Source: a virus. Taken from it: a stretch of 27,304 nt of DNA. A program made the position numbers and the translations under genes. Positions 12,422 to 25,748 of the stretch are shown in pieces; positions within the stretch are counted from its first letter, which is position 1, and every line of letters starts with the position of its first letter. The stretch spans positions 1 to 27,304 of the IMG/VR virus record IMGVR_UViG_3300009180_002325. One strand, written 5' to 3'. A model generated the notes under the pieces. The model was not told where the DNA came from. It saw nothing but the letters and a program-made list of their open reading frames with translations, and did not search any database.

Positions 12422-12890
12422 GGAGTCCTCATGTTGTGGTGTACACACACATTGCATACGGAGTGTGTAGGGGGCAAGTGGAAAATTGGGAAATAAAATT
12501 TTGTAAAAAATTTTGGGGAATGGGGGGGAGGGGGTTAACTTTAACACCGCAGCCGCCGCTCCGCCGTCAAAAGGCCTCCGTGGGGTCGTTTCGCCTCGCT
12601 ACTGTAGCTCATCGCTATCGCATCGCATCGCTACTGTATCGCCTCACAACCATACACGCAGCACGCGCACAGCCCCGTTGCGCTTCGCGCATTGGCTAGG
12701 ATCGCATTAGAGCGTCAAGGGTGCGCGTCATTCTGTCAGCTACCTGTGTGCCATGACAGGCTGACATGCGATTTGTTCTAGTATTGTTCTGCTAACATTA
12801 CAATGCTGTCATGTTGTCACGGCGTGCTTGCAACGTGTAAACATACGTGACGTTATGACAGTGCTTAAACAATCAAAGGAACCTAGCACC
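12422..12890. promoter_or_regulatory. Divergent non-coding region with iterons, candidate origin/operator
   Basis: 469 bp between the leftward and rightward operons, with no credible gene. It holds a GTGTACAC palindrome at 12439-12446 and an A/T-rich block at about 12483-12520 beside a G-run (12522-12535). An iteron-like cluster follows: TCGCTACTGTA at 12596-12606 and 12628-12638, TCGCCTC at 12591-12597 and 12639-12645, plus several ATCGC steps between. Further on are six TGTCA/TGACA words in 12734-12861, including TGTCAGC (12734-12740) facing GCTGACA (12760-12766), and one GTGTAAAC at 12835-12842. Promoters must be here for both operons, but none is a clear -35/-10 pair. TTGTCA at 12814 with TGTAAA at 12836 is a weak candidate. 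Confidence 0.5.
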
Positions 12891-13463
12891 ATGAAACATG
12901 CAACACGCGAAACATACCTTGCCAGCGCAACTGAATACCTTGCGCCTCACTTCGTTAACCTTGGCTACCCCCTACCGCCCGTGCGCGCTTCCGTTGGTAT
13001 CCCTGCCGGGGGCAAGGGCAAGAAGCTCAAAGCTATCGGTCAATGCTGGAGCAACCTTGCAAGCGCGGATAACACCACCGAGATATTCATCTGCCCTAGC
13101 CAAAGTGAACCGGTAGCAGTCCTTGCCATTCTCTTGCATGAGCTAGTCCATGCCGCCGTTGGCCTGAAGTGCGGCCACAAGGGCGCGTTTAAACGTGTCG
13201 CCGTTGCGCTTGGTTTAGAAGGCAAAATGACGGCCACCTATCCCGGCCCGGCCCTGGCCAGCGATCTTGCCGATCTTGCCAGCACATTAGGCGAATACCC
13301 CCATGCCGCGCTTAACACGGCGCTATCTGGCCGTAAGAAGCAGGGTACGCGCATGATAAAGTTGGAATGTGACGACTGCGGCTGGTCATGCCGCACGGCG
13401 CAAAAGAACGTCGACGCTGGCACGCCTACCTGCCATTGCGGTGGCTCAATTAACGTAGCGTAA
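12891..13463 (+). CDS. SprT-like zinc metalloprotease
   Basis: 190 residues with the gluzincin-like SprT fold. HELVH (83-87) gives the first zinc ligands and the catalytic Glu, and His96 in GLKCGHKGAF fits the third. Upstream are KAIGQCWS and EIFICPS, as in SprT/Spartan proteins. The C-terminal end (160-185) is a zinc ribbon: CDDCGWSC ... CHCGG. SprT-like proteases act on proteins bound to DNA (Spartan cuts DNA-protein crosslinks), and phages often carry them among early genes. The ATG at 12891 has AAAGGAACC upstream. An in-frame ATG at 12855 and a TTG at 12828 would lie within the control region and lack ribosome sites. Confidence 0.82.
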   Translation: MKHATRETYLASATEYLAPHFVNLGYPLPPVRASVGIPAGGKGKKLKAIGQCWSNLASADNTTEIFICPSQSEPVAVLAILLHELVHAAVGLKCGHKGAFKRVAVALGLEGKMTATYPGPALASDLADLASTLGEYPHAALNTALSGRKKQGTRMIKLECDDCGWSCRTAQKNVDAGTPTCHCGGSINVA

Positions 13464-13469
13464 ACCTAA

Positions 13470-13490
13470 GGGGCGGCATGGTGCCGCCCC
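13470..13490 (+). terminator. GC-rich hairpin after the SprT-like gene
   Basis: An 8-bp perfect stem GGGGCGGC (13470-13477) and GCCGCCCC (13483-13490) closes a 5-nt loop 6 nt after the stop codon. There is no T-run after it, so it may slow polymerase, protect the mRNA 3' end or act with Rho rather than as a strong intrinsic terminator. Confidence 0.55.
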
Positions 13491-13524
13491 ACACCTTGAA
13501 CCAGGAAAGAAGGAAACCGAAACA

Positions 13525-13710
13525 ATGAAAATTATTTATTCGTGCATTATCAGTGATAATTGGCCGCCGTGCCCTGGTGAAATCATTATGTATTTTTCCA
13601 CACGAAAAAAAGCACAATGGTTCGGCGAACGGGAAATAGAAGCGGCGATTGAATTGAAAATGCAGCCTCTGCCGACTTTTGTTGTAAAGCCGTTTGCAAC
13701 CGACGCCTAG
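13525..13710 (+). CDS. Small hypothetical protein
   Basis: 61 residues of unknown family (MKIIYSCIISDNWPPCPGE, then STRKKAQWFGEREIEAAIEL). The pattern is a beta strand, a loop with two cysteines and an amphipathic helix. A long purine-rich leader with GAAGGAAACC precedes the ATG. Its base composition is more A/T-rich than the following genes. It lies between two hairpins, the second of which is a strong terminator, so it may form a short unit with the SprT-like gene. Confidence 0.6.
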   Translation: MKIIYSCIISDNWPPCPGEIIMYFSTRKKAQWFGEREIEAAIELKMQPLPTFVVKPFATDA

Positions 13711-13730
13711 CCCCACCCCCACCCCCCAAG

Positions 13731-13756
13731 CCCCGGCCTTAGTGCCGGGGTTTTTT
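13731..13756 (+). terminator. Intrinsic terminator
   Basis: A 7-bp perfect GC stem, CCCCGGC (13731-13737) and GCCGGGG (13744-13750), with a 6-nt loop, followed directly by six T residues (13751-13756). This is the clearest Rho-independent terminator in the window and ends the SprT-like/61-residue gene transcript. Confidence 0.87.
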
Positions 13757-13757
13757 A

Positions 13758-13785
13758 TTGCGCGGGTTTTGGGTGTGTGTATAAT
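13758..13785 (+). promoter_or_regulatory. Candidate sigma70 promoter
   Basis: A perfect -10 TATAAT (13780-13785) sits 16 bp after TTGCGC (13758-13763), directly behind the terminator and 35 bp before the next start codon. The -35 is a weak match. Position and the perfect -10 make it a credible start of a new transcript for the small-gene array. Confidence 0.55.
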
Positions 13786-13819
13786 CCCGGTCCTCGCGCA
13801 CGCACTCCCGGCAGGAACC

Positions 13820-14104
13820 ATGCCAGCGCCCTTAACCCGCGTCTACCGCCCCGCTTACGAACCCCTTGGCTACTACGTAGCTAACCGGGACCATCACTAC
13901 GTGATCCGAATAGGTGACGTTATCGGACACTATCGGGCGGGACAAATGGCTAGTCTCAACTGGCTGCTAAACGTCTATCCCGATCCCAGCCACTGGACCC
14001 GTCTATTTCCCGGCACCCGTGCCAGCCGGTGCGATAGCAAAGCCGCCGCTTCCTGGTTCATTCGCGGTTGCCGCGAACGAGGCGTTTACACGCCTCCAAC
14101 CTAG
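13820..14104 (+). CDS. Hypothetical protein
   Basis: 94 residues of no known family. It starts MPAPLTRVYRPAYEPLGYY and contains RDHHYVIRIGDVIGHYR, GQMASLNWLLNVYPDP and a basic end (CRERGVYTPPT). The ATG at 13820 follows GGCAGGAACC, the same AGGAACC leader as its neighbours. An earlier in-frame start at 13694 would read through the terminator and promoter and is rejected. A GTTTACAC motif (14084-14091), set in a perfect 5-bp stem, lies just before the stop codon. Confidence 0.6.
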   Translation: MPAPLTRVYRPAYEPLGYYVANRDHHYVIRIGDVIGHYRAGQMASLNWLLNVYPDPSHWTRLFPGTRASRCDSKAAASWFIRGCRERGVYTPPT

Positions 14105-14519
14105 CCAATACGGGCCAGAGGCTTATCCACCTTACAGATACTTATTAGCCAAAAAACAAAAACCCATTTTGCTTAATCATTGCAACAGGTTAGACCCCTT
14201 CTTACCCTTTTTCACCTTTTTGCCGAAGAAAACCGTAAAGGCTACCCTAGAACAAAAGTAGAACCCCAGAAGTCACGGCAAAAAGGTGAAAAAGGGTACT
14301 ACTACCCTATATATGTGTAATATTATATTAGATAACAGTAGGTTACGACCCCCCCCTTTTTGCTTTTTGGAGTAGGTTAAAAAGCCCTTAATAACTCCCC
14401 CCGGCCCGATCCCCCTGCCCGTCTGAACATTACAACGATGTAATCCAATCCACACTATACACCCGCCCCGAACCGTGACACATTGCCACCACTGAACAAC
14501 AACGAAGGAACCCGAACCG
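14105..14519. other. 415-bp gene-free region: inverted repeat, AT-rich tract, leader
   Basis: No convincing gene on either strand. Contents in order: A/T-rich sequence (14140-14180), the 23-bp perfect inverted repeat 14203-14298 (listed separately), an AT-only-like tract (14307-14333, TATATATGTGTAATATTATA), two copies of AGTAGGTTA 34 bp apart (14337-14345 and 14371-14379), an 8-C run at 14349-14356, and finally a leader with TGACACATTGCCA (14476-14488) and AACGAAGGAA (14501-14510) that recurs at 15981-16015. It probably combines promoter functions with a structural element such as an origin. Confidence 0.6.
14203..14298. repeat. 23-bp perfect inverted repeat with 50-bp spacer
   Basis: The left arm 14203-14225 (begins TACCCTTTTTCACC, ends TTTGCCG) is exactly complementary to the right arm 14276-14298 (begins CGGCAAAAAGG, ends AAAGGGTA). 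The 50-nt spacer may hold a smaller CTAC/GTAG stem. There is no target-site duplication outside the arms and no T-run ending. It could form a cruciform or a long RNA stem. Confidence 0.9.
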
Positions 14520-14723
14520 ATGACCAAGACCGAACTGTTCAACCTGTTCACCGCCGTGGGCAACGCCCACAACGCCGCGACCCGCGTCCTTCAGGTCAAC
14601 GGCCCCGGCCCCGCTTACGAAGCCGCCGCTGACGCTGCCGATGCCTTGGAAGCTACCCTTGAAGCCGCCGCCGATGCCTACCACGCCGCGAACCCCGGCC
14701 CCATCTCCGTCCCCGTCTATTAG
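14520..14723 (+). CDS. Small Ala-rich helical protein
   Basis: 67 residues, strongly helical and rich in Ala/Asp/Glu (FNLFTAVGNAHNAATRVL, then EAAADAADALEATLEAAADAYHAA), ending PGPISVPVY. It looks like two helices forming a small bundle. No family is recognised. The gene is very GC-rich at third positions, unlike the A/T-rich stretch before it. AAGGAACCC is the ribosome site. It resembles the Ala/Asp-rich protein at 16024-16272 in composition and shares its leader sequence. Confidence 0.62.
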   Translation: MTKTELFNLFTAVGNAHNAATRVLQVNGPGPAYEAAADAADALEATLEAAADAYHAANPGPISVPVY

Positions 14724-14734
14724 GAACCCACATC

Positions 14735-15085
14735 ATGAACACCCCGGCACGCCGCATCCGCTTCCTGACCCACATTAACGACAGCGTGGTGAAAATCACC
14801 CTGGCCCCCGGCCAGACTTTGCACCACTTCCAAGGCGGTCCGACTGACGAGGGCTGGACATCATCCGCCGAAAGCTGGACGTATGACGGCGCAGGGGTGA
14901 CCCGCGAGACGCTGGACCGGGGCCGCGACTGTGACGGCCTACATGAGCATGGCGGCACTTCATACGCTCCCGCCGCCTTCCTGACGGCCCGTTGCGACCA
15001 ATGGACCGATGGACACCGTATGCCGGTGTGGTCGCACGTTGACGCATATCAGCGCGACCACACCGCCGAAGCCGCGAACTATTAA
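14735..15085 (+). CDS. Hypothetical protein of the MNTPAR set
   Basis: 116 residues of unknown family. Starts MNTPARRIRFLTHINDS, then ITLAPGQTLHHFQGGPTDEGW and WTYDGAGVTRETLDRGRDCDG, and ends with HVDAYQRDHTAEAANY. The beta-rich middle suggests a small folded domain. The first six codons are nearly the same, base for base, as those of the gene at 15123, and both have GGAACCC before the ATG. The stop codon is followed at once by a GTTTAAAC motif (15088-15095). Confidence 0.6.
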   Translation: MNTPARRIRFLTHINDSVVKITLAPGQTLHHFQGGPTDEGWTSSAESWTYDGAGVTRETLDRGRDCDGLHEHGGTSYAPAAFLTARCDQWTDGHRMPVWSHVDAYQRDHTAEAANY

Positions 15086-15122
15086 CCGTTTAAACGCACC
15101 CCAACCCAAGGAACCCGAATTC

Positions 15123-15419
15123 ATGAACACCCCGGCCCGCATCCTGAAAGACGTTAAGAACGCTGCCCGCAACCGCTACGCTTGGCCGGGTGGCTATCCT
15201 CTCCTGCTGATAATGTCTGACGGCGAAACCCTTTGCCCGGACTGCGCCAAGTCCGAGTTTCCAGCCATTGCCCGCGCCACTATCGCTAAGGCCCGCGACG
15301 GTTGGCGGTGCGAAGGTGTGGAAGTCCATTATGAAGGCCCGCCCGCCTATTGCGCCCATTGCAACGCGCAAACAGAATCAGCCTATGGCGATCCCGCCGC
15401 AGAATCAGAAACCGTTTAA
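15123..15419 (+). CDS. Small zinc-binding-like protein of the MNTPAR set
   Basis: 98 residues. After MNTPARILKDVKNAARNRY come GGYPLLLIMSDGETLCPDCAKSEFP and YEGPPAYCAHCNAQTESAYGD. The CPDC and CAHC knuckles, about 40 residues apart, would bind one zinc. Phage proteins of this kind are common in early regions, and their role is unknown. The ATG at 15123 lies after AAGGAACCCG. A longer frame from 15009 would overlap the gene before it and is rejected. The stop codon is part of a GTTTAAAC motif (15414-15421). Confidence 0.65.
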   Translation: MNTPARILKDVKNAARNRYAWPGGYPLLLIMSDGETLCPDCAKSEFPAIARATIAKARDGWRCEGVEVHYEGPPAYCAHCNAQTESAYGDPAAESETV

Positions 15420-15441
15420 ACGCTTGTAGGAACCCTGCAAC

Positions 15442-15930
15442 ATGAACACCGCACACGCTCACGACTTTGCCGCTGTCGCCGCTGCCGCCTATCCCGCCGA
15501 CCCCGAGAAGTCCTCCATCTTGTCGGCCCTCACAGGCTTCGCGGCTGGCCGTCCCGGCTTGGAATACGCCGATTACGGCGACCCTGTAGCCTACCGCGCA
15601 GAGTCCCGCGCCATCACCCGCGACCTGCACCACGTTTACACGCTGCTACGCCGGGTCCAGCTCGCGCACTCGATAACCTCCGTTGACCTCAAGGCCGCCT
15701 TTCGGGCCTACTCTGGCCGACTGACATGGGACGGCTCCCGGCTGGATTACACTCCCGGCCAATATTTCCCCACGGAATACCGCCGCGCAGTGTGCGCCGT
15801 GTTGGCCGCTGCGCTTTGGGACTATTGGCGCGACTGCGTGCCGGAATCCGTCAGCAACCGCGCCGAGTGGATACGCTGCACGGCACGCCGCGAGTTAGGC
15901 CGCACCTTGGCAGACCGCTGGTTCCACTAG
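15442..15930 (+). CDS. Hypothetical phage protein
   Basis: 162 residues of unknown function, mostly helical: HDFAAVAAAAYPADPEKSSIL, AESRAITRDLHHVYTLLRRV, SVDLKAAFRAYSG, then PTEYRRAVCAVLAAALWDYW and RCTARRELGRTLADRWF. The GYxxYxx-type aromatic segments and the ending with basic/aromatic residues recall small DNA-binding or structural phage proteins, but no family is known to me. The leader is GTAGGAACCCTGCAAC before the ATG. The first codons (MNT) fit the two genes before it. It contains one GTTTACAC (15634-15641), and another motif (15936-15943) follows its stop. Confidence 0.65.
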   Translation: MNTAHAHDFAAVAAAAYPADPEKSSILSALTGFAAGRPGLEYADYGDPVAYRAESRAITRDLHHVYTLLRRVQLAHSITSVDLKAAFRAYSGRLTWDGSRLDYTPGQYFPTEYRRAVCAVLAAALWDYWRDCVPESVSNRAEWIRCTARRELGRTLADRWFH

Positions 15931-16023
15931 ATACCGTTTAAACGCACCGAAATAACACCATTGCGCTATGCTTTGCGACATGACATATTGCCATTGCTGC
16001 ACCCGAACGAAGGAAATAACCCC

Positions 16024-16272
16024 ATGACAATCGTAACAACCGCCTACGCCGTTGACCCGTCCGTGACCCGCCGCCAAAAAATTGAAAGCCGCATTGCATC
16101 CCGCGCCGCCATCGCCAAAGCCCGTGCCGACGCTTACAACGCACTTGACGACCTCGACGCAGCCACCACCCACAACGACGCTCTTGCAGCCCAAGATGCC
16201 ATTGACGACCTTAACGCAGCCCTCGACGCAGCACGCGCCGCCATCGCTCGCGCCCAGGGTGCAGCACCATGA
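16024..16272 (+). CDS. Ala/Asp-rich helical protein
   Basis: 82 residues, one long amphipathic helix by composition: RRQKIESRIASRAAIAKARADAYNALDDLDAATT, then AAQDAIDDLNAALDAARAAIARAQ. It could be a coiled coil. The ATG at 16024 follows GAAGGAAATAACCCC. The longer reading from a TTG at 15961 lies in the leader. That leader (TGACATATTGCCA at 15981-15993, AACGAAGGAA at 16006-16015) repeats the one before 14520. The stop overlaps the next micro-gene (ATGA). Confidence 0.6.
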   Translation: MTIVTTAYAVDPSVTRRQKIESRIASRAAIAKARADAYNALDDLDAATTHNDALAAQDAIDDLNAALDAARAAIARAQGAAP

Positions 16273-16358
16273 CCCCCGGCCTTCGCCTCCAGCTATACCT
16301 CCGCCTCGCCCTGGTGCTGGCCGTAGCGGCCTACGTCATCGCCCACGGTGCCGCATGA
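16269..16358 (+). CDS. Micro-gene: 29-residue membrane peptide (first of a pair)
   Basis: A 29-codon gene starting in an ATGA overlap with the Ala-rich gene and ending in an ATGA overlap with the next micro-gene. The product MTPGLRLQLYLRLALVLAV continues AAYVIAHGAA, a single transmembrane helix with basic residues near the N-terminus. Exact coupling at both ends supports translation. Function unknown. Small paired membrane peptides in phages can be holin-like or block superinfection, but nothing in the sequence proves that. Confidence 0.55.
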   Translation: MTPGLRLQLYLRLALVLAVAAYVIAHGAA

Positions 16359-16432
16359 GCGACCTGATTTACTCCGCCCTGGCTGGCCTAGCCCTAGCCC
16401 TGCTGTTCTATGCTTTGTGCATTGTGACATGA
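16355..16432 (+). CDS. Micro-gene: 25-residue membrane peptide (second of a pair)
   Basis: A 25-codon gene overlapping the previous one by ATGA. The product is MSDLIYSALAGLALALLFYA followed by LCIVT, again one transmembrane helix, with an acidic N-terminus, opposite in charge to its partner. The two may insert in opposite orientations or form a pair. A TTGACA promoter-like element begins 4 bp after its stop codon. Confidence 0.55.
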   Translation: MSDLIYSALAGLALALLFYALCIVT

Positions 16433-16436
16433 CCGC

Positions 16437-16465
16437 TTGACACCGCGACGAACTGACACTAGACC
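16437..16465 (+). promoter_or_regulatory. Possible promoter
   Basis: A perfect -35 TTGACA (16437-16442), a 17-bp spacer and TAGACC (16460-16465) as a poor -10, about 30 bp before the next start codon. The -35 and the spacing are good and the -10 is weak. Confidence 0.35.
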
Positions 16466-16495
16466 TTGAACCGCTACAACCCAAACGAGGAACCC

Positions 16496-16780
16496 ATGAA
16501 AAAAGTAATCAATCTATCAACAGCCTGTTTAAACGGCTCACACCTTCAAGGCCGCATTATGGCCGATGTGTCGGAACTGACCGCCGTATTCGGCGACCCC
16601 TTCAAACCGCTCGACCCCGACAAGACAACGATGGAGTGGTCGCTGTTATTTGTGGACGAGGAAACCGGCGAGAGTGTACCCGCCACAATTTACGACTGGA
16701 AGCGGTCACCCGGCTGGAGTGTCGGGGGATACAGCCCCAAGGCCGTGGAACTGGTTCAACAGTTTATCGGGGGGCTGTGA
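16496..16780 (+). CDS. Conserved phage-type small protein
   Basis: 94 residues: MKKVINLSTACLNGSHLQG, then ELTAVFGDPF, DKTTMEWSLLFVDEETGES, PATIYDWKRSPGWSVGGYS and AVELVQQFI. I recall small phage proteins that share the order 'L...FG.P', 'KTT.EW', 'ATIYDWK', 'W.VGG' and 'A..LV...I' in many tailed phages. The role is unknown. It is an alpha-beta fold, possibly single-strand DNA-related. The ATG at 16496 has GAGGAACCC. A GTTTAAAC motif (16527-16534) lies inside its first codons, so the region may also be a control site. Confidence 0.65.
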   Translation: MKKVINLSTACLNGSHLQGRIMADVSELTAVFGDPFKPLDPDKTTMEWSLLFVDEETGESVPATIYDWKRSPGWSVGGYSPKAVELVQQFIGGL

Positions 16781-17103
16781 TGGCTAAAAAACACAAACCC
16801 ACGCCCTTGCGGCTCACGCTTGAAAAAATGCTCAAGAAAGCCTTGCGCGTGCAGGGTGAAAACGAACGAGAAAAAGAACGGCTGGAATGGCGTCAAGGAC
16901 TGATTGAAAAAGAAGAATTAACGCTTGCAAGCCTAAGAGCCGAAATAATTGAGTGGCATCAACTAAAAGTCACGCATTCAATATTTTGCAATGCAATTAA
17001 ACATGAGCTTGCGAAACCAACTGAAGAAAATATGCTTGGAAACATTCAAAAAGCTTATTCCGATTTTCAAAAACGTTTACACGCTATCAAAGGAAAATGG
17101 TGA
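16780..17103 (+). CDS. Coiled-coil hypothetical protein
   Basis: 107 residues, highly charged and helical: LEKMLKKALRVQGENEREKERLEWRQ, then LIEKEELTLASLRAEIIEWHQLK. The middle should form a coiled coil, while the C-terminus (AYSDFQKRLHAIKGKW) is basic. The ATG overlaps the previous stop by one base (TGATG). There is a change to A/T-rich codons relative to the gene before it. A GTTTACAC motif lies near the 3' end (17075-17082). No known family. Confidence 0.6.
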   Translation: MAKKHKPTPLRLTLEKMLKKALRVQGENEREKERLEWRQGLIEKEELTLASLRAEIIEWHQLKVTHSIFCNAIKHELAKPTEENMLGNIQKAYSDFQKRLHAIKGKW

Positions 17104-17420: not shown

Positions 17421-17421
17421 A

Positions 17422-17796
17422 ATGAAAGTAACAATGCCCCCAGGTGTCTATATCCTTGGTGATCCCTGTTATGTGATTCCAGAAAACATGTGGGACGACT
17501 TTTGTGAATCAACCAAGGGCTACAATTACAAGAGATTAGAACACGAAGGCCACACGGCTATGGCCTTCGGAACCGACCACGGAGATGGCGTTTTTTACGA
17601 CCAACAAGGCCGCGAGTATGGCGTGGATGCTGGCATGATCGGATTGGTCCCGGCGCTGTGGGCCAAGCCGCGTCATCCGCTGGACCGCTCAAAGCCCGTG
17701 CAGATCACACTAACCAAACCTACTAAATGCAGCCGCTCAGACAACGGCACGTTGACCTTTGGCGACATAAAAATTGTGACGGGGCTTTCGTTATGA
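17422..17796 (+). CDS. Hypothetical protein (GDPCYV type)
   Basis: 124 residues, beta-rich: MPPGVYILGDPCYVIPENMWDDF, then HTAMAFGTDHGDGVFYDQQGREYGVDAGMIGLVPA and DNGTLTFGDIKIV. The element GVY-IGDPCYV with a following W and a DAG-x-(I/L)-G block recurs in phage and bacterial small proteins that I recall only as uncharacterised. The gene starts one base after the previous stop with AGGAGAG. It ends in an ATGA overlap with the following RHH gene. Confidence 0.65.
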   Translation: MKVTMPPGVYILGDPCYVIPENMWDDFCESTKGYNYKRLEHEGHTAMAFGTDHGDGVFYDQQGREYGVDAGMIGLVPALWAKPRHPLDRSKPVQITLTKPTKCSRSDNGTLTFGDIKIVTGLSL

Positions 17797-17960
17797 AAGA
17801 CCGCACCGCAATTCAATGCGACCTATCGCCCGAAATTCTACGCCGTTTTACAGAACTGCGTAAGAAACTTGGCATGTCTAACCGCGCTTTGTTGGAACGC
17901 ATACTGCTGGAGGCTCTGCCGCGCTGGGAACTAGTCACGCTGCCGGGAGACGAACAATGA
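17793..17960 (+). CDS. Small ribbon-helix-helix-type protein
   Basis: 55 residues: MKDRTAIQCDLSPEILRRF, then LRKKLGMSNRALLERILLEALPRW. The pattern strand (AIQCDLS), helix (EILRRFTELRKKLG), turn with MSN and helix (RALLERILLEAL) is that of CopG/Arc-type RHH DNA-binding proteins. It overlaps its upstream gene by ATGA. A longer frame from 17727 is a shadow. It is the third RHH-type protein in the window and a candidate to bind a repeated DNA motif, though the target is unknown. Confidence 0.6.
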   Translation: MKDRTAIQCDLSPEILRRFTELRKKLGMSNRALLERILLEALPRWELVTLPGDEQ

Positions 17961-18148
17961 GCGTCACGAACCAACGATTTATGTTTTGCATCAACTGCGC
18001 CCATGCCGTCTGGCCGCAACACGAACTGGGCTACTGCGGCCACCCAGACGCACGCAAATCAATCACATCCGAATGTCGGGATGCCCTCGGCGCGTGCGGC
18101 CCGAACGCAAAACTGTACATGGAGATGCCAGATGAAAAAACTATATGA
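17957..18148 (+). CDS. Small cysteine-rich protein (zinc-binding-like)
   Basis: 63 residues: MSVTNQRFMFCINCAHAVW, then GYCGHPDARKSITSECRDALGACGPNAKLY. Cysteines in CINC, YCGHP, SEC and GAC could bind one zinc. The layout C-x2-C ... C-x-H-P ... C ... C resembles small phage proteins listed as hypothetical. It starts in an ATGA overlap with the RHH gene, overlaps the next gene by 17 bp, and has no known function. Confidence 0.6.
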   Translation: MSVTNQRFMFCINCAHAVWPQHELGYCGHPDARKSITSECRDALGACGPNAKLYMEMPDEKTI

Positions 18149-18293
18149 ACGCTTTTTAGAATACCTCATCAACCGGCTGCGCGGTCCCTGGCTGGATGCC
18201 GTTCCGCTCCCGCCGCATGTTGCGAACCTGAAACTAAACCCTGAACTGCTGCTGGTGCATTTAATCAAAACAACGAATGGAACTGGGCGATAA
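18132..18293 (+). CDS. Small hypothetical protein
   Basis: 53 residues, MKKLYERFLEYLINRLRGPW, then DAVPLPPHVANLKLNPELLLVHLIKTT. An amphipathic helix at the start and a second at the end suggest a helical hairpin, perhaps membrane-associated. GGAGATGCCAG precedes the ATG. The overlap with the previous gene is 17 bp. It is below the size where function can be judged. Confidence 0.5.
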   Translation: MKKLYERFLEYLINRLRGPWLDAVPLPPHVANLKLNPELLLVHLIKTTNGTGR

Positions 18294-18295
18294 AA

Positions 18296-18508
18296 ATGAC
18301 AATCCAACAAAAGAAATTTACGGCCTGGTGTAAGGCCACCGAGCTAACCCGCGAACAAACTGCCGCCGTGTTTGGCTGCGACCTGCGGACCATCTACCGC
18401 TATTTGTCTGGCACGACAGAACCGCACGGCGGTGTCATGCGACTGCTGGAAGTGTTTACACGCTTCCCCGATGTCCAGGCTGAGATGATTGAGAAGCACA
18501 CTCACTAG
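18296..18508 (+). CDS. Helix-turn-helix regulator
   Basis: 70 residues: KKFTAWCKATELTREQTAAVFGCDLRTIYRYLSGTTEPHGGVMRLLEVF. LTREQTAAVFGCDLRTIYRYLSG is a clear XRE/lambda-repressor-type HTH (helix 2, turn and recognition helix 3). Similar DUF-type phage HTH proteins control early transcription. A GTTTACAC motif lies in the gene itself (18454-18461), inside a 7-bp stem. The stop codon TAG shares the bases CTAG with the stop of the converging primase gene, so no terminator lies between. Confidence 0.75.
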   Translation: MTIQQKKFTAWCKATELTREQTAAVFGCDLRTIYRYLSGTTEPHGGVMRLLEVFTRFPDVQAEMIEKHTH

Positions 18509-20754
18509 AACGGCGCGGCGTCTTTCAGGCGGTAGATCGTCTTAGGTCTGCCGCCCGTTTCTTTGATGACTTCAATCAAATCCTCAGAACCCATTAGCGC
18601 CTTGAGTGTCGTGTCCCTGTCGCGGCCTAAGAACAACGTCTGTTTATACAGCCTGGACTTATCAATCGACCCACCCGCCTTACGGACTATCTCGATCACA
18701 CGCTTGCTAAAATTCTCTGCGGCGTTGTCGCTGACATAACGCTCGACACCATCCACTAGCTGATTGATTGACCTGTCTACAATGGCTCGGGCGAACTCTA
18801 CATCGTAGGTGTTGATGATCGGGTTTTCGGGGTCACAGCCGATGGCGTGGATCATTGCGACCTTGATGGTCAACTCGTCGCGCCGCGCCCAGAACGATGT
18901 AAACGGTGTGCCTTCCAAAGCCCTCAACTTTTTGGTTGTGTCTAGCTTCATGTCTTTAATCATCTTGGTAGCGGCATCGTCGTATGAAACGTGCATTAGC
19001 TCTGGCGTATGACTGCCATCCAATGCGGATGCAATGCCGCCTATGCCCTCGTTTATCCGGGCTAACAGATCAATCAACTCGACTGGCGGGTCTTTCTCTG
19101 GCGCGTTTTGATCGTCGGGGTAATTCTCCTCGGATTCAAAGACCAAGAACCGCGCCAGCGAACCGTCTACCGCGTTGCTGCTTTCCAGAGCCTTCCAGAA
19201 GTGGCTTGGGACTGTCGTGCCGTAGACCGACAAACACGGCTGGACGATTTCCTGCCGGGGGCGGTCCCGTTGGTCGGCGTACTCGATGCCGTGGTACGTC
19301 AAATTGCTGGAGGTAAACAACTCGGTCATGTGGGACATAATCTCGATCAGATGCTTCGGTCCGCGCTTGTCGAGCATGGCACCCAGAAACATCCCGAACT
19401 CGTCGATCTGGAACAGAATGGACGGGCTGCGGTGCAGGGCACTCAACAAGCCCGAGCCTGACGCGATCTTGGACCCGCCGATCTTCTTCTCGGCTCCCAG
19501 AAAGTCGCTGAAAAGCCGGTCTATGATCTGGCGGCTATGGTTCTTGCCAGCGCCCGAATCGGCCAGACTGATGGCGAACAGGTTGGTACGCAGATTGGAC
19601 GGGCTGCGGTACTTGCGCCCTGCCAGCGTCCCAATGGCGCACAAGGCCGCTGCCAGGGCCAAGATTGGCTGGGGACGGATGGAGGTTTCATTGATGTACT
19701 GGGTCAGCTTGCCGACAGCGCCTTTTGGCTCCAGGGAGCCAGACTTGCGTTTACACGGTGCGGCCACTGACTCGGCCTTCTTCCAGGGCGCTACAGGCGC
19801 GACCTTGGCCGGGGGCGGCTCAAATACCTTGGCGTCAAAGACGGCCTCCTGGCGCATCCCCAGGGCATCCTGTAGCCATGCCGTAGCCCCATCGAGGGTT
19901 GCCCCGGTCACGGCTATAACCAAGTCTATGGCGGTCATACCAGTATCCCTGGCGAAATCCCTTATGCCGTCTGGGGTGATACCGATATTGGCCCCATCGC
20001 CGTCCCGCCAATGGGCAACGGCCCTATACCCGCGATTAGCCCCACGTTTGGCGTCTGGGATTAGCCTTAGTACCCAATTATCTAAGTTTAACAACGCGGT
20101 ATCATTGATATCACGCCAAAAGCTATCATTGTCGCCTTGCACGGGAGTTTGGATAGCTTTGCCGTTAACAGCCTGTTTTTCTACCTTAGATTGGAATGGC
20201 TCCAGGGCTTTTGCAATTCTATCGTGTATGTCGTGGGGTAATTCTGGCAACTCAGAGGCCGTTAAATCCTCCAAAGTGTCGGGGGTCAGCCAGTGATAAC
20301 TCATGCCCTCGGGGTGGATGGACGGCGGCAGGACCGTCTGCTTGCCTTGGGCCAGCACCTCAATCACCGAAACGCCATCCAGCAGGTACTTCTTGCTGAC
20401 CACCGCGAAGCCCCTGTACATAGCCGTATAGCCCTTGGCACCCATCTTTTTGACCGGGGACGGCGGCAGACACGCCTCCAACGCGGCACGGACTTCTGGG
20501 CTACCGTAGTCAAAGTCTATGGCGGTGACGTTGCTGGCTCGACCCAAGGCCAAACAGATCGACGGGCTAGGCCACTTGGCCCAGATGTCCAACTGGAACT
20601 TGGTTGGTGCTTTATCGCAGAACCGCTGCCATTGGTTCATACCGATCCACTGGTTGCCCTTGAACTCGCCGGGACGCTTCTCTCCAGGCATGATGGGTAT
20701 AACCGAGTACCCCCGCTCTACGAGCCGGGTTGCAGTCGTGATGAAGTCGGTCAT
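18505..20754 (-). CDS. Bifunctional primase-polymerase with DUF3987-like helicase-type domain
   Basis: 749 residues and the largest gene here, probably the replication primase/polymerase with a helicase-like ATPase. N-terminus (about 1-165): AEP-type primase-polymerase with AIDFDYG (Asp80 and Asp82), SVIEVL (Glu132) and LPPSIHPEG (His147). A middle region (230-300) is like the helical PriCT/linker domain. C-terminus (about 345-700): P-loop-like LADSGAGKNHSRQI (398-410) and ILFQIDEFGMFL with Asp451-Glu452 as Walker B, typical of DUF3987-type phage proteins. It is transcribed against its flanking genes, together with RusA and the Cro-like repressor (4-bp overlaps), and has one GTTTACAC (19749-19756). 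Fusion and length are normal for phage replicative primases. Confidence 0.88.
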   Translation of the reverse strand: MTDFITTATRLVERGYSVIPIMPGEKRPGEFKGNQWIGMNQWQRFCDKAPTKFQLDIWAKWPSPSICLALGRASNVTAIDFDYGSPEVRAALEACLPPSPVKKMGAKGYTAMYRGFAVVSKKYLLDGVSVIEVLAQGKQTVLPPSIHPEGMSYHWLTPDTLEDLTASELPELPHDIHDRIAKALEPFQSKVEKQAVNGKAIQTPVQGDNDSFWRDINDTALLNLDNWVLRLIPDAKRGANRGYRAVAHWRDGDGANIGITPDGIRDFARDTGMTAIDLVIAVTGATLDGATAWLQDALGMRQEAVFDAKVFEPPPAKVAPVAPWKKAESVAAPCKRKSGSLEPKGAVGKLTQYINETSIRPQPILALAAALCAIGTLAGRKYRSPSNLRTNLFAISLADSGAGKNHSRQIIDRLFSDFLGAEKKIGGSKIASGSGLLSALHRSPSILFQIDEFGMFLGAMLDKRGPKHLIEIMSHMTELFTSSNLTYHGIEYADQRDRPRQEIVQPCLSVYGTTVPSHFWKALESSNAVDGSLARFLVFESEENYPDDQNAPEKDPPVELIDLLARINEGIGGIASALDGSHTPELMHVSYDDAATKMIKDMKLDTTKKLRALEGTPFTSFWARRDELTIKVAMIHAIGCDPENPIINTYDVEFARAIVDRSINQLVDGVERYVSDNAAENFSKRVIEIVRKAGGSIDKSRLYKQTLFLGRDRDTTLKALMGSEDLIEVIKETGGRPKTIYRLKDAAPF

Positions 20755-21170
20755 TCTTGCCCTATAACCGTTACGATTAATTGAGGAATCTCGGCGTACT
20801 GCTTGGTAGCTGTCAGCTTAACGATCTGCGAGTCATCGACGACGACAATGCCGTTCATGCCGTCGAGGGCTTTAACAATGTTATCTAGGTCAGGCTTAGT
20901 GATCGGCTTGATTTGTCCCGCAATGGCCGACAACCGCTTCTTAAACGACCATGAGGCTGGCACCATCATAAACGCCTCCACGACAACTTCAACAGGCCCA
21001 CCAAGCGGCGGCATGTTTTTCATCGCCTCGGCTGCGTAAGCCGACACCTGATTCTCATACCGGCGCGTCTTCTCTGGCGTGTACGAACGCACATGACCAC
21101 CAAATGTAGATATCCTGGCGCGTCCCTTCGCTACAGGTTGTCCCGGCACGGTGAAGGTAACGACTCTCAC
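20751..21170 (-). CDS. rusA: RusA-type Holliday junction resolvase
   Basis: 139 residues with the full RusA pattern: VPGQPVAKGRARIS (8-21), SYTPEKTRRYENQV, PVEVVVEAFMMVPASWSFKK, then KPDLDNIVKALDGMNGIVVVDDSQIVKLTATKQY. PDLDN and VVDDSQI carry the catalytic aspartates and VAKGRAR the DNA contacts. It cuts Holliday junctions during phage recombination, replication or packaging. The length (about 120-140) is normal. It overlaps the Cro-like gene and the primase gene by 4 bp each, so the three form one leftward unit. Confidence 0.93.
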   Translation of the reverse strand: MRVVTFTVPGQPVAKGRARISTFGGHVRSYTPEKTRRYENQVSAYAAEAMKNMPPLGGPVEVVVEAFMMVPASWSFKKRLSAIAGQIKPITKPDLDNIVKALDGMNGIVVVDDSQIVKLTATKQYAEIPQLIVTVIGQE

Positions 21171-21361
21171 GAATAGAAGTCCTGCGCCTTCACTTTTCCC
21201 CTTGTTGCCTTCTCTATAGCCAACATATGTTCTGAACGCGGTATACGCTTGTCATCATCCGTAGATGTCCACCTGTGTATCGCGCTGTCTGAAACATCAA
21301 TCATAACGGCGAACTCACGATTGGTGAGCTTCTGCTGGTCAAGCCATTTTCTTAATTTCAT
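21167..21361 (-). CDS. Cro/YdaS-like helix-turn-helix repressor
   Basis: 64 residues: MKLRKWLDQQKLTNREFAV, then MIDVSDSAIHRWTS and RIPRSEHMLAIEKATRGKVKAQDFYS. LTNREFAVMIDVSDSAIHRW is a lambda-Cro/YdaS-type HTH, and RIPRSEHMLAIEKATRGKV is the typical C-terminal part. The ATG at 21361 follows GGAGG. Longer frames upstream only reflect the divergent gene. As the first gene of the minus-strand unit, with dyads in the 104-bp divergent gap, it probably regulates its own promoter and that of the 21465 gene. Confidence 0.85.
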   Translation of the reverse strand: MKLRKWLDQQKLTNREFAVMIDVSDSAIHRWTSTDDDKRIPRSEHMLAIEKATRGKVKAQDFYS

Positions 21362-21464
21362 ATAAACCTCCGTTGTAGAGAAAATAGTGTTTGACAGAAC
21401 CAAGACGACTTGGCAATCTCCTTTTTGCCAAAGCGTAAACATAACCACAACCAACGAGGAAACC
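21362..21464. promoter_or_regulatory. Divergent promoter/operator region of the Cro-like gene
   Basis: 103 bp between divergent genes. There is a perfect -35 TTGACA at 21391-21396 on the plus strand without a good -10 (CAATCT at 17 bp). Two adjacent dyads follow: CCAAG (21400-21404) with CTTGG (21409-21413), and TTGGCAA (21410-21416) with TTGCCAA (21425-21431). Next is GCGTAAAC at 21433-21440, one base off the dispersed motif. The dyads are likely repressor operators. Confidence 0.6.
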
Positions 21465-21869
21465 ATGAACTTCAAACCAAAAATGTTTTCTAACCGTACT
21501 GTTGAAGACGCCGCATCAGATTGGATGGATGCAAAGAACGAAGAGATTGCGGCAAACAAGCGCCGCATTGAAATCGAGGAGGAGATTCTCTCCTTCCTCA
21601 CATCAAAGACTGAAGGCAGCGAGTCCCATCAGATCGGACCATACAAGGTCACGCTCACTGGTCGCCTCAACCGTAAGGTTGAATGGGATATGTTGCCGAA
21701 GCTCGGTATCCCAGAAGACATGCTGCCGTTTAAACATAAACCCGAACTGGACTTGAAAGGACTGCGCTATTTGGAAAGCAATGAACCTGAATTTTATAAC
21801 GCTTTTTGCAAGGCTCTAACTGTTGAACCAGCAAAAACATCTGTAACCGTCATTAGAAACGAGAATTAA
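21465..21869 (+). CDS. DUF7173-like phage protein
   Basis: 134 residues: a charged helical start (SNRTVEDAASDWMDAKNEEIAANKRRIEIEEEILSFL), then YKVTLTGRLNRKVEWDML, KPELDLKGLRYLESNEPEFYNAF and LTVEPAKTSVTV. The order of a helical part, then a 'V-T-x-x-N-R-K-V-x-W' strand, then 'KPELDLKGLRYL' and a 'PAKTSV' end is what I recall for DUF7173 proteins, found beside phage recombination genes. Function unknown, probably tied to the Sak4/Cas4 set. AACGAGGAAACC precedes the ATG. It contains a GTTTAAAC motif (21728-21735). Confidence 0.75.
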   Translation: MNFKPKMFSNRTVEDAASDWMDAKNEEIAANKRRIEIEEEILSFLTSKTEGSESHQIGPYKVTLTGRLNRKVEWDMLPKLGIPEDMLPFKHKPELDLKGLRYLESNEPEFYNAFCKALTVEPAKTSVTVIRNEN

Positions 21870-21870
21870 T

Positions 21871-22632
21871 ATGGCAATCAATCTTAAATCATTACGAAAA
21901 GGCAGCATTGTCCGTCCTCCGCGTATTGTCTTGCACGGTACGCACGGCGTTGGTAAGAGCAGCTTCGCCGCACAGGCCGACAAGCCGGTGTTCATCCAGA
22001 CTGAGGAAGGTTTGGATGCTTTGGATGTGACGGCCTTCCCACTGGCTCGGTCATACGATGAGGTGATGGAGGCTATCGGCTCCCTGTACAGCGAAGACCA
22101 CGACTTCGGAACTGTCGTGCTGGATTCAGCCGACTGGATGGAGCAGTTGATCTTCAAGCAGGTAGCCGTAAACCATAAAGTCACTAACATTGAGGACATG
22201 GGCTATGGCAAGGGCTACACGTTTGCCGTCGATTTATGGCGTAACGTCATGGAGGGGTTTGATCTTCTCCGTAATGAGAAAAATATGCAGGTCATATTTT
22301 TGGCGCACACCCAGATCAAACGGTACGACGATCCTCTCGTCGATAGCTATGACCGCTATATGCTTGATCTTCACAAAGGCGGTGCGGCGATAATCTCGGA
22401 ATGGTGCGACCTTCTGATGTTTGCGAACTACCGTGTAAACACCGTGAAGTCGGATGCGGGCTTTAGCCAGAAAAAGACCCGAGCCGTTGGTGCTGGTGAG
22501 CGTGTTCTGCACACTCAAGAGCGTCCCGGCTGGGTGGCTAAAAGCCGCTGGGCATTACCCGAATCTATGGAACTAAACTACGAAACTTTCGCAACCGAAC
22601 TTGCAAAAGCAATGGAACCCAAAGGAGAATAA
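21871..22632 (+). CDS. Sak4-like RecA-type ATPase (phage nucleotide-binding protein)
   Basis: 253 residues of the phage AAA/RecA-fold group (AAA_24). Walker A is LHGTHGVGKSSF (21-32) and Walker B is TVVLDSADWM (81-90). Later, QVIFLAHTQIKRYDDP (sensor-like strand) and DRYMLDLHKGGAAIISEWCDLLMFANY fit Sak4-type annealing/recombinase proteins. With the DUF669 ssDNA-binding-type protein and the Cas4-like nuclease downstream, this is the standard phage recombination module. It probably loads or pairs single strands. It contains one GTGTAAAC (22433-22440). Confidence 0.85.
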   Translation: MAINLKSLRKGSIVRPPRIVLHGTHGVGKSSFAAQADKPVFIQTEEGLDALDVTAFPLARSYDEVMEAIGSLYSEDHDFGTVVLDSADWMEQLIFKQVAVNHKVTNIEDMGYGKGYTFAVDLWRNVMEGFDLLRNEKNMQVIFLAHTQIKRYDDPLVDSYDRYMLDLHKGGAAIISEWCDLLMFANYRVNTVKSDAGFSQKKTRAVGAGERVLHTQERPGWVAKSRWALPESMELNYETFATELAKAMEPKGE

Positions 22633-22634
22633 CT

Positions 22635-23141
22635 ATGGCTGAACTACATGGATTTGAGTTTAACCCTGATGCCGTTACGGATCGTCCTGGCAAGACGTTG
22701 TTGCCTGTTGGTGAATACGTCGTTGAGGTAACCGACAGCGACTTCAAAGACACTAAAAACGGCCTTGGCAAATATATCAACTTTGAGTTTACGGTCCTCG
22801 ACGGTGAGTACGTTGGCCGTAAGTTCTATGAAAACCTGAACGTCGTAAACAGAAACGATAAAACTGTTGAAATCGCAAACCGCGCCTTGAAGGACATACT
22901 CCGCGCAACCAATACGCTGGGTAAGCCGTTCAAGAACACCGCTATGCTGCACAACATCCCCTTGAAAGTCCGTGCTGCTATGGGGAAACGCAGTGATAAC
23001 GGTGAAGACGAAAACAGATTCCGTTTCTTTGCTATCAATGAAAGCGTCCCGTCAGACGCTTCGGCCACGCCAGTAACGGCTGTGCGTGCCGCTTCAGTGG
23101 CTTCTGATAACGGTCCCAAGAAGAAGCCCTGGGAAAAGTAG
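22635..23141 (+). CDS. DUF669 single-strand DNA-binding-type protein
   Basis: 168 residues: FEFNPDAVTDRPGKTLLPVGEYVVEVTDSDFKDTKNGLGKYINFEFTVLDGEYVGRKFYENLNV, then KDILRATN and a C-terminal tail ending KKKPWEK. The order 'LP.G.Y.v.i....K.TK.G.G.yl...f.vl.G.y.Gr.......l' is the DUF669 signature. These are OB-fold-like proteins encoded beside Sak4-type ATPases. The tail ends in basic residues plus W, unlike the acidic tip of typical SSB. AGGAGAATAACT precedes the ATG. Not far downstream is the hairpin leader of the Cas4-like gene. Confidence 0.87.
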   Translation: MAELHGFEFNPDAVTDRPGKTLLPVGEYVVEVTDSDFKDTKNGLGKYINFEFTVLDGEYVGRKFYENLNVVNRNDKTVEIANRALKDILRATNTLGKPFKNTAMLHNIPLKVRAAMGKRSDNGEDENRFRFFAINESVPSDASATPVTAVRAASVASDNGPKKKPWEK

Positions 23142-23159
23142 CAAATTAACTGAAAGGAA

Positions 23160-23185
23160 ACCGGGGGCGTGTAAACGCCTCCGGT
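23160..23185 (+). promoter_or_regulatory. 11-bp hairpin with GTAA tetraloop in the Cas4-like gene leader
   Basis: Arms ACCGGGGGCGT (23160-23170) and ACGCCTCCGGT (23175-23185) pair over 11 bp with one G-U, closing a GTAA (GNRA-type) loop. An AAAGGAAA ribosome-site candidate lies immediately before it (about 23153-23160), and the ATG is 6 nt after it at 23192. No ribosome site is visible between hairpin and ATG. The loop and inner stem form one copy of the GTGTAAAC motif (23169-23176). Confidence 0.8.
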
Positions 23186-23191
23186 ATCTCT

Positions 23192-24157
23192 ATGGTCCCC
23201 ATTAGCCTTCCCGACCCAACGCTTATGCGTATGAACGATGCCCTTGAGCAGCAGTATGCCTCAGAGCAGCGCGGCTACATCGGCGCGTCCTCCATTGGCT
23301 CGGCTTGCGAACGGCGTATATGGAACCAGTTTCACTGGGTCAATGCGGAGAAGATGACCGCCAAGTCCCTTAAGGCCATTGCGGACGGCCACCACAGCGA
23401 AGAACTGATGGCCAGCCGATTACGGCTGGTGGACGGCATATCCCTCCAGACTCATCAGGAAAGCGGCGAACAGTTTGGCTTTGAAGACGGCCACATTCGG
23501 GGCCACCTAGATGGCATCATCTTCGGGCTGGAACACTCCCCAGAACAACACGTTTGGGAACACAAGTGTGTAAACGTCGAGAAGTTTGAGAAATTGATAA
23601 AGCTGAAAAACAAGGATGAGTCTCGCGCTTTGCTGGAATGGGACGAAATCTATTTTGCCCAGGCCCAGCTTTACATGCACTACTTCAATATAGATTGGCA
23701 TTACCTGACGGTCTGCACGCCGGGGAGCCGGGATGAGACAGCGTGCTTTACGGCGTTGAACCCCGACGCGGCCAAGCACTACATAGAACGCGCCAACAAG
23801 ATCGTTAGCGCCGATAAGCCCCCGCCGCGCATATCAGAAAGCGCGGCATGGTTTCAATGTAAGATGTGTCCGTTCACGGACAACTGCCACGGCGCTAAGA
23901 TACCAACGCCGAATTGCCGCACTTGCGTCCACTCAACGTCTACTCAGGACGGCAAATGGATTTGTGAACTGCACAAGCAAGAACTAAATCGTGAAGTACA
24001 AAAGTCTGGCTGTAAGGATCACTTGTACAACCCTGGCCTAATGCCGGGAACGCAAACTGATGCCGGTGAAGGCTGGATTGAATATAAACTCAACGACGGA
24101 AACATAATTAGGAACCAAAATGCTACAGTTACGTCTCTACCAGCAACAGGCGGTTGA
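23192..24157 (+). CDS. Cas4/RecB-like PD-(D/E)XK exonuclease
   Basis: 321 residues. The fold is shown by GASSIGSACERRIWNQF (31-47, with the first cysteine), GHHSEELMASRL, GHLDGII (Asp107), VWEHKC (Glu123 and Lys125, the ExK), and EIYFAQAQLYMHYF (the Gln-containing helix). The cysteines CKMCPFTDNC complete an iron-sulfur-type cluster of the Cas4/AddB kind, and further cysteines follow (CRTCVH, CELH, GCKDH). It is probably a 5'-3' exonuclease for phage recombination. CRISPR genes are absent, so it is not an adaptation Cas4. The ATG at 23192 is preceded by the bridging hairpin. The 3' end overlaps the helicase gene by 38 bp. Confidence 0.85.
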   Translation: MVPISLPDPTLMRMNDALEQQYASEQRGYIGASSIGSACERRIWNQFHWVNAEKMTAKSLKAIADGHHSEELMASRLRLVDGISLQTHQESGEQFGFEDGHIRGHLDGIIFGLEHSPEQHVWEHKCVNVEKFEKLIKLKNKDESRALLEWDEIYFAQAQLYMHYFNIDWHYLTVCTPGSRDETACFTALNPDAAKHYIERANKIVSADKPPPRISESAAWFQCKMCPFTDNCHGAKIPTPNCRTCVHSTSTQDGKWICELHKQELNREVQKSGCKDHLYNPGLMPGTQTDAGEGWIEYKLNDGNIIRNQNATVTSLPATGG

Positions 24158-25748
24158 TTCGGTATTTGAATGGTTTGAGGGTGACGGCCATTCGGCCAAC
24201 CCTCTGATCGTCCTGCCCACAGGCACGGGCAAGAGCCTTGTGCTGTCTGAGATATGCCGCCGGTCGATTGCCGAATATGGCGAGATGAAGATCGTGGTCG
24301 TCACCCACGTTATGGAACTGATTAAACAGAACCATGACGAGATGATGCGCCAATGGCCCGAGGCTGACGCTGGCATATACTCGGCTGGCATTGGTAAGCG
24401 CCAGCACACCCCAGCCGTTGTGTTCTGCGGCATCCAATCCGTACATGCAAAGGCCCACCTGTTCCAGAAGGTGGATTTCGTAATCGTTGATGAGGCGCAT
24501 CTCATTCCGCGCAAGGTCAACACGATGTACCAGAAGTTCCTCAATAGCCTCCGCGTAGCCAACCCGCACATGAAGATCATCGGCCTGACGGCCACGCCAT
24601 ACCGAATGGACAGCGGGATGCTGCACCGGGGCGATGGGGCGCTGTTTGATGATGTTTGCTACGATTACAGCGTCCTTGATGCGGTTAAAGAAGGCTACCT
24701 CTGCAACCTGATTACCAAGAACACTCGGCTGGAATTGGACACCAGCGGCGTCCACACCAGGGGCGGTGAGTTTATCCAAGCCGAACTGCAAGACGCGGTG
24801 GACGAAGAAGGCATCAACCGCCGAGCCGTAGAAGAGATGATCGAGTGGGGCCAGGACCGCAACCATTGGCTGGTCTTTGGCTCTGGCGTAAACCATTGCC
24901 GCCATCTGGCTGACATGCTGAACGAAGAGGGCGTAGATTGCCGCACCATCTTTGGCGACACGCCTAAAGACGAACGCGCTGAAACGATTGCAGCGTTTAA
25001 ACGCGGTGAGGTACGTGCTTTATGCTCAATGGGCGTACTGACAACAGGTTTTAATGCACCGCAAGTAGACATGATTTCCGTCTTGCGGCCTACCAAGTCC
25101 CCAGGTTTGTATGTGCAGATTGTAGGGCGCGGTATGCGTATTGCCGAGGATAAGAAGGACTGCCTGATCTTAGACTTCGCCCGTAACATCCAACGGCACG
25201 GGCCTGTGGATCAAGCCAGGGTCAAGAACAAAGACCACCGGGAGAAGACTGGGCCGAGCGACGGTCCGTTGGTTAAGAACTGTCCCCAATGCCGTAGCGT
25301 TGTGCATTTGTCCTGTATGCAATGCCCCGACTGCGGCTACGAGTTCCCCCGTGAGATTCAGATCGTGTCCAAGGCCAGCGAACTGCCTGTTCTATCGAGC
25401 GGCAGTCCTACGCACTGGGTTGATGTTGATAGCGTCCACTACGCGACCCACCGCAAGGTTGGTAAGCCTGACAGCCTCAAGGTGACTTATAGCTGTGGGT
25501 TCCTAAAGTACAGCAATTGGATTTGCCTGGAACACTTTGGTTTCGCGGCTGAGAAGGCAAGAGCTTGGTGGCGGCGGAGTGGAGGTGGTAATCCTCCTGC
25601 TTCCATAGCCGAAGCGATTGCGCGGCAGCATGAATTGACGAAGCCAAGTTCTATACAAATCAAACGCAATGGTAAATTTGATGAAATTACAAACTACAGG
25701 TTTGATGTGCTACGTGTGCCGCAGGGAGAGTCGAGGCTTTCGGTATGA
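24120..25748 (+). CDS. SF2 DEAD/DEAH-box helicase with zinc ribbon
   Basis: 542 residues. Q-like RLYQQQAVDSV (5-15); motif I LPTGTGKSL (32-40); motif II DEAH (124-127); motif III LTATPYR (156-162); motif IV-like HWLVFGSG; motif V GVLTTGFNAPQVD; motif VI QIVGRGMR. The zinc ribbon NCPQC ... CPDCGYEFP follows, with a C-terminal extension (WVDVDSVHYATHRKVGKP, a 'W..V..v.y..H.K.gk.ds..V.Y' domain often seen after phage helicases). It probably unwinds DNA in replication or recombination. The ATG at 24120 lies inside the end of the nuclease gene, with AGGAACCAA as ribosome site. One GTTTAAAC motif is inside (24995-25002). Confidence 0.93.
   Translation: MLQLRLYQQQAVDSVFEWFEGDGHSANPLIVLPTGTGKSLVLSEICRRSIAEYGEMKIVVVTHVMELIKQNHDEMMRQWPEADAGIYSAGIGKRQHTPAVVFCGIQSVHAKAHLFQKVDFVIVDEAHLIPRKVNTMYQKFLNSLRVANPHMKIIGLTATPYRMDSGMLHRGDGALFDDVCYDYSVLDAVKEGYLCNLITKNTRLELDTSGVHTRGGEFIQAELQDAVDEEGINRRAVEEMIEWGQDRNHWLVFGSGVNHCRHLADMLNEEGVDCRTIFGDTPKDERAETIAAFKRGEVRALCSMGVLTTGFNAPQVDMISVLRPTKSPGLYVQIVGRGMRIAEDKKDCLILDFARNIQRHGPVDQARVKNKDHREKTGPSDGPLVKNCPQCRSVVHLSCMQCPDCGYEFPREIQIVSKASELPVLSSGSPTHWVDVDSVHYATHRKVGKPDSLKVTYSCGFLKYSNWICLEHFGFAAEKARAWWRRSGGGNPPASIAEAIARQHELTKPSSIQIKRNGKFDEITNYRFDVLRVPQGESRLSV

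Follow-up and report, generated by a model that had tools for sequence, protein, structure and literature searches.

Dispersed ten-base DNA sites in the early region of uncultured phages, with a small MqsA-like protein as their candidate regulator

The IMG/VR virus record IMGVR_UViG_3300009180_002325 was analysed over 27,304 bp, and this whole stretch is called the window here. It carries a short, nearly palindromic DNA word, CGTTTAMACG in its strict and YGTTTAMACR in its relaxed form, which is scattered through the early and replication genes. We propose, with middling confidence and on comparisons of sequences, that these sites are dispersed operators read as double-stranded DNA, and that their regulator is most likely the phage's own 70-aa MqsA-like helix-turn-helix (HTH) protein, encoded at 18296-18508. 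The strict conservation of the sites, their palindromic form and their co-variation with one allele of the HTH gene fit such an operator set.

Relatives were gathered by protein-guided searches, and all of them are metagenome contigs, several from the same phage group. The near-complete relatives G001 (59.4 kb) and G002 (61.8 kb) were compared with the window, together with G003 (L106; 60.4 kb), G015 (58.7 kb) and further contigs. Among GenBank phages there was no near DNA relative of the window; judged by the portal protein, the nearest named phages are DSL-LC04, the Pelagibacter phages HTVC023P and HTVC027P and the Roseobacter phages CRP-901/902, at about 35-40% identity, and the Caulobacter phages RW and GB2A show 30%. 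Enrichment was assessed with a codon-aware null model (2,000 runs), in which synonymous codons were permuted inside each gene and intergenic bases were shuffled, so that all proteins and the codon usage of each gene were preserved. An order-3 Markov model served as second null for 9- and 10-mers.

A sequence-only reading of the window had counted 7 copies of GTTTAAAC and 11 of GTTTACAC/GTGTAAAC, had placed 16 of the 18 within 12835-25002, and had noted that inside genes they occupy all three reading frames. A direct count gave exactly these numbers, and the clustering and the use of three frames were likewise confirmed. The word is far more frequent than in synonymous shuffles: 12 strict sites were observed against a mean of 0.385 (maximum 4), and 18 relaxed sites against a mean of 0.94 (maximum 5). 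Under the Markov model, the most over-represented 9-mer was GTTTACACG (10 observed, 0.25 expected) and the most over-represented 10-mer was CGTTTACACG (7 observed, 0.08 expected). Relaxed sites are as numerous in the near-complete relatives, with 18 in G001 and 19 in G002, and they concentrate in the early/replication block, which holds 11 of the 18 in G001 (23% of the genome, p = 5e-4) and 16 of the 19 in G002 (29% of the genome, p = 8e-7). Sites are spaced by 0.2-2 kb, with a density in the early block of about one per 0.7-1.2 kb. Mostly intergenic sites account for 4/18 in the window, 3/18 in G001 and 4/19 in G002, where intergenic DNA makes up 8-9% of the genome. A literature search for GTTTAAAC in phages yielded nothing relevant. 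The sites of the window, with the open reading frames (ORFs) in or near which they lie, are the following.

461-470, plus strand: CGTTTACACG, in ORF 49-549 (minus strand); kept in G001 and G002, and also in G003.
5194-5203, minus strand: CGTGTAAACG, in ORF 4704-5405 (minus strand); relatives do not keep it.
12834-12843, minus strand: CGTGTAAACA, between genes, 57 bp ahead of ORF 12891; retained by both G001 and G002, where the flanks are 77-78% identical.
13186-13195, unstranded: CGTTTAAACG, in ORF 12891-13463; kept in G002, not in G001.
14083-14092, plus strand: CGTTTACACG, in ORF 13820-14104, 12 bp before the stop; kept in G001 and G002.
15087-15096, unstranded: CGTTTAAACG, right after the stop of ORF 14735-15085; kept in G002.
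15413-15422, unstranded: CGTTTAAACG, includes the stop codon of ORF 15123-15419.
15633-15642, plus strand: CGTTTACACG, in ORF 15442-15930; kept in G002.
15935-15944, unstranded: CGTTTAAACG, 5 bp past the stop of ORF 15442-15930.
16526-16535, unstranded: TGTTTAAACG, in the first part of ORF 16496-16780; shared with G001, G002 and L008.
17074-17083, plus strand: CGTTTACACG, in ORF 16780-17103, 20 bp before the stop.
18453-18462, plus strand: TGTTTACACG, near the 3' end of the HTH gene 18296-18508; kept in all site-rich relatives.
19748-19757, plus strand: CGTTTACACG, in the primase gene, within a linker of low conservation; kept as CGTTTAAACG in G001 and G005, although C becomes F there.
21727-21736, unstranded: CGTTTAAACA, in ORF 21465-21869; this phage only.
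22432-22441, minus strand: CGTGTAAACA, in the Sak4-like gene; kept in all relatives examined except G003 and G015.
23168-23177, minus strand: CGTGTAAACG, intergenic, between 23141 and 23192, at the centre of a 10-bp inverted repeat; this phage only.
23567-23576, minus strand: TGTGTAAACG, in the Cas4-like exonuclease gene; kept in G001, G004, G005 and G006.
24994-25003, unstranded: CGTTTAAACG, in the helicase gene; kept in G001, G002, G004, G005 and G006.

The word is sharply bounded. Across the window, G001 and G002, enrichment of one-base variants is limited to a T in position 1 and an A in position 10, besides A or C at position 6; the core GTTTAMAC is invariant apart from that A/C choice, and no base is fixed past position 10. 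When the half-sites of 56 sites were classed as YGTTT or YGTGT, 24 were T/T, 31 mixed and 1 G/G. By our own arithmetic about 10 G/G sites would be expected under independence, so that one perfect half-site seems to be required. The asymmetric copies had been described as lying in blocks of uniform orientation, and such blocks are present in this window; pooled over the three genomes, however, the copies divide 17:14 with respect to the direction of the nearest gene, which is no bias. Some sites sit within longer inverted repeats, and over 57 core sites the complementarity of the flanks is at chance level. Since the word is sharp, its flanks do not pair and its orientation is unbiased, it acts as double-stranded DNA rather than as an RNA element.

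That selection acts on the DNA rather than on the protein had been put forward from the single sequence, with absence of the sites from relatives as a refuting outcome; the alignments bear the claim out, and relatives do keep the sites. Where a coding site has an orthologous position, the motif persists in 8 of 11 cases in G001 and 8 of 12 in G002, against a background of identical 10-mers in the same genes of 17% and 15%, respectively. Amino-acid changes leave the word intact: in the HTH gene, VFTR to VFKR alters only the free M position (in G001 this T-to-K change turns site 18453 into TGTTTAAACG), the same holds for PCKR to PFKR in the primase gene, and in the primase linker, where G002 and G004 are missing one codon, the sequence still reads GTTTAAAC. 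Purifying selection thus maintains the DNA word even where the encoded protein changes.

Not all relatives carry the sites. There are 3 strict sites in G003, 1 relaxed site in G015, and none in L214, in L215 or in distant primase relatives of high GC. G003 keeps 1 of 9 and G015 0 of 9 orthologous coding sites, with backgrounds of 16% and 8%. General divergence does not account for the loss of sites, because beyond the early block G003 and G015 resemble G002 about as closely as G001 does (capsid 93-95%, portal 87-91%).

The presence of the sites varies together with the type of one small protein:

18296-18508, plus strand: HTH protein, 70 aa, with an MqsA-like helix-turn-helix; best candidate binder.

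It matches the Pfam MqsA model (E 7e-7, 29.9 bits, just under the curated cut-off of 30) over positions 74-130 only, and a profile of MqsA from the PDB (E 2e-5); an N-terminal zinc domain is absent from the protein. Its Arg31 and Arg35 are equivalent to Asn97 and Arg101 in the alignment to PDB MqsA. The AlphaFold model is of low confidence (predicted local distance difference test 68), so that its fold matches (HigA2, MqsA and P2 C, none below E 0.2) are only consistent with an HTH of this kind. No match to the protein was found in GenBank phages, and GTDB, searched with it or with the DegT aminotransferase, gave no relative. In every site-rich phage having the gene (type A) the segment FGCDLRTIYRYLSGTTEPHGG is invariant. 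It is replaced by FGIDLRTVHRYLSCKTQPHGG in G003 (type B) and by FGV..RTMRRYA.GETSIP in G015, L214 and L215 (type C), so types B and C are those of the four contigs with three, one and no copies. The contig L214 is a mosaic, in which upstream ORFs are 72-92% and downstream DNA is 86-91% G002-like, with a type C HTH-primase module between them; its 5.4 kb contain no sites, and opposite the site G002:29952 the homologous sequence of L214 is CATATACACT. From this co-variation, the HTH allele seems to decide the presence of sites.

Several observations weigh against assigning the sites to this protein. The HTH and primase genes are inherited as one block, and ORF 13820, ORF 16496 and the 12891 gene likewise separate the site-rich group, so that the HTH is not singled out. 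Only one alignable site is lost in L214. R31 and R35 do not differ between the three types, and a change of specificity is therefore not proven. Directly upstream of the HTH gene there is no site, and in phages of types B and C no comparable motif was found; a search for a replacement motif in G003 or G015 found local tandem repeats only.

The sequence-only reading had named ribbon-helix-helix (RHH) proteins and the HTH proteins at 18296 and 21167 as possible binders, and of these only the HTH at 18296 survives. The remaining candidates were these:

17793-17960, plus strand: RHH-like protein, assigned by eye; disfavoured as binder.
21167-21361, minus strand: Cro/YdaS-like HTH; disfavoured as binder.
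18505-20754, minus strand: Prim-Pol/DUF3987 primase, whose gene converges on the linked HTH gene.

The RHH protein has the wrong distribution, since site-rich G001 and G002 lack it whereas the window and site-poor G003 (81%) have it. The recognition helix of the HTH at 21167 differs among site-rich phages and is equally conserved in site-poor ones. In the C-terminal winged helix of the primase, too, site-rich phages disagree with one another, and site-poor G015, L214 and L215 have a form like that of the window. The last 70 residues of the primase (window about 18508-18700) occur in two exchangeable versions, the window and G005 being about 61% identical there and 93-100% elsewhere, in phages otherwise near-identical. 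A small Cys-rich, zinc-finger-like ORF (17957-18148) shortly precedes the HTH ORF; since MqsA has its zinc domain and HTH in one protein, the two ORFs could be a split arrangement. As a binder in its own right this ORF was rejected, because its G002-like form is found at 72% in site-free L214.

If the 70-aa protein is the regulator, it would bind as a dimer, with one recognition helix on each half-site to either side of the central TTAA. Since the sites are mostly intragenic and unoriented, roadblock or silencing action would be likelier than promoter control alone. Less surely, the bound protein might form roadblocks or a silencing scaffold over the early block, and might shut off early transcription once it accumulates or silence superinfecting siblings.

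Among other explanations, an unlikely one, though the best placed of them, is recognition of the sites by a DNA-binding protein of the host, for instance a nucleoid, division or global regulator, which the phages recruit or mimic. The phage origin of the binder is not proven, and site-rich and site-poor phages have different tail fibre genes and hence perhaps different hosts. Site-poor G003 and G015, however, have 87-95% of portal and capsid protein sequence in common with site-rich G002, and the presence of sites tracks the early-block haplotype, including mosaic L214. Somewhat less probable still is a role in organising phage DNA rather than transcription, in which the HTH or another early protein would use the sites for bridging, partition or a nucleoprotein scaffold. 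Unoriented, mostly intragenic sites at this spacing would suit such a role, yet they concentrate in the early block rather than genome-wide, and none of the scanned G002 proteins is ParA/ParB-like.

It is quite improbable that the sites are iteron-like recognition sites for a replication initiator or primase, read by the Prim-Pol/DUF3987 protein. Sites do surround the replication genes, and the alleles of primase and HTH are linked, but the sites show no origin-like clustering, and the C-terminal winged helix of site-rich G004 and G005 is only about 61% identical to that of the window, while the winged helix of the site-poor contigs is window-like. RNA hairpins with GUAA or UUAA loops, acting as terminators or RNA-protein sites, deserve very little credence: sites 14083, 18453 and 23168 do lie within longer perfect inverted repeats, but the absence of flank pairing largely refutes this idea, the copies are unbiased in orientation, and Rfam gave no match. 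Least probable is a Chi-like role in recombination, with the word read by the Cas4-like exonuclease and the helicase: although the word is short, exact and over-represented in a phage with recombination genes, strand bias is absent and G003 (61-81%) and G015 (about 74%) retain the exonuclease and helicase but not the sites.

Other features of these genomes were also recorded. A perfect 23-bp inverted repeat, TACCCTTTTTCACCTTTTTGCCG, with arms at 14203-14225 and 14276-14298 and 50 bp between them, sits in a gene-free stretch of about 415 bp (14105-14519), a possible origin or regulatory region. The gene at 12891-13463 (phrog_6361) is SprT-like by eye, its product having a HELVH motif like that of metalloproteases and a CxxC ribbon at the C-terminus; it occurs in the site-rich phages (the window, G001 and G002) but is missing from G003 and G015. 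In the early region of G003, units resembling CCTTGGA/CCTAGGG form a local tandem repeat at 13128-13455. Window positions 1027-12421 form a metabolic block common to the group, with a nucleoside diphosphate-sugar epimerase, a DegT-like aminotransferase and QueC/PAPS-reductase-like proteins.

Regarding known systems, MqsA binds AACCT-N-AGGTT palindromes at several loci, and one of its sites, AACCT-TA-AGGTT, is centred on TTAA like the sites described here (PMC4894380); Asn97 and Arg101 are important for its DNA binding (PMC5422877). The HTH at 18296 differs from MqsA in lacking the N-terminal zinc domain, in having Arg for Asn at position 97 and in the sequence of the candidate site.

The nearest working analogy is that of the stoperators of cluster A mycobacteriophages (L5, Bxb1, TipsytheTRex), even though their defining features are lacking here. 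These phages carry about 20-30 exact short sites scattered in the genome (PMC6550527, PMC9283540), comparable to the 18, 18 and 19 dispersed sites of the window, G001 and G002; the distance between motifs follows that between repressors (PMC6550527), and the bound repressor is proposed to halt elongation (PMC9283540). Stoperator sequences also co-vary with a phage regulator allele (PMC6550527, PMC9283540), and a comparable co-variation may exist here: type A occurs with sites and types B and C without, one mosaic contig supports this, but the HTH is linked to the primase. Stoperators, however, are 13 bp long, asymmetric, located in short intergenic spaces and oriented with transcription, whereas the sites studied here are 10 bp long, near-palindromic, unoriented and mostly intragenic. 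Stoperator phages are temperate, with an integrase or parABS, and no lysogeny gene was detected in G002: none of 30 of its proteins (most >200 aa; not every protein was scanned) gave an integrase or partition match with PHROGs, which makes a role in lysogeny doubtful. The stoperator-like layout of the sequence-only reading therefore stands as regards dispersed operators, but not in the strict stoperator traits, and its partition alternative finds no partition gene among the G002 proteins scanned.

A bolder proposal, which we put forward tentatively and would not expect to hold in full, is that in a phage group without a detected lysogeny module a solo 70-aa MqsA-type HTH silences the early region globally through symmetric intragenic sites, that its alleles are exchangeable, and that the site set grows or erodes with the allele, in an immunity-type coevolution outside mycobacteriophages. 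If the operator reading is confirmed, dispersed-operator control would reach from temperate mycobacteriophages to such uncultured phages, with a different, symmetric, intragenic and unoriented site architecture, and the group would offer a natural series of allele swaps for tracking how an entire set of binding sites is gained and lost alongside its regulator.

Possible stoperators have also been described in the Nostoc cyanophages A-1 and N-1, with 43 and 21 repeat copies and, in the parts of the report consulted, no binder named (PMC4916379); there, as here, the repeats are not consistently aligned with gene direction, but they lie mostly between ORFs and are asymmetric. The T1-like lytic phages (Stevie, T1, TLS) carry many dispersed 22-bp repeats, which were likened to stoperators and whose role is given as unknown (PMC4319613, PMC11447400). 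Those repeats are asymmetric, predominantly intergenic and in one orientation, unlike the sites described here, and the parts consulted name no binder for them. The present sites bear on the question of what such dispersed repeats do in lytic phages.

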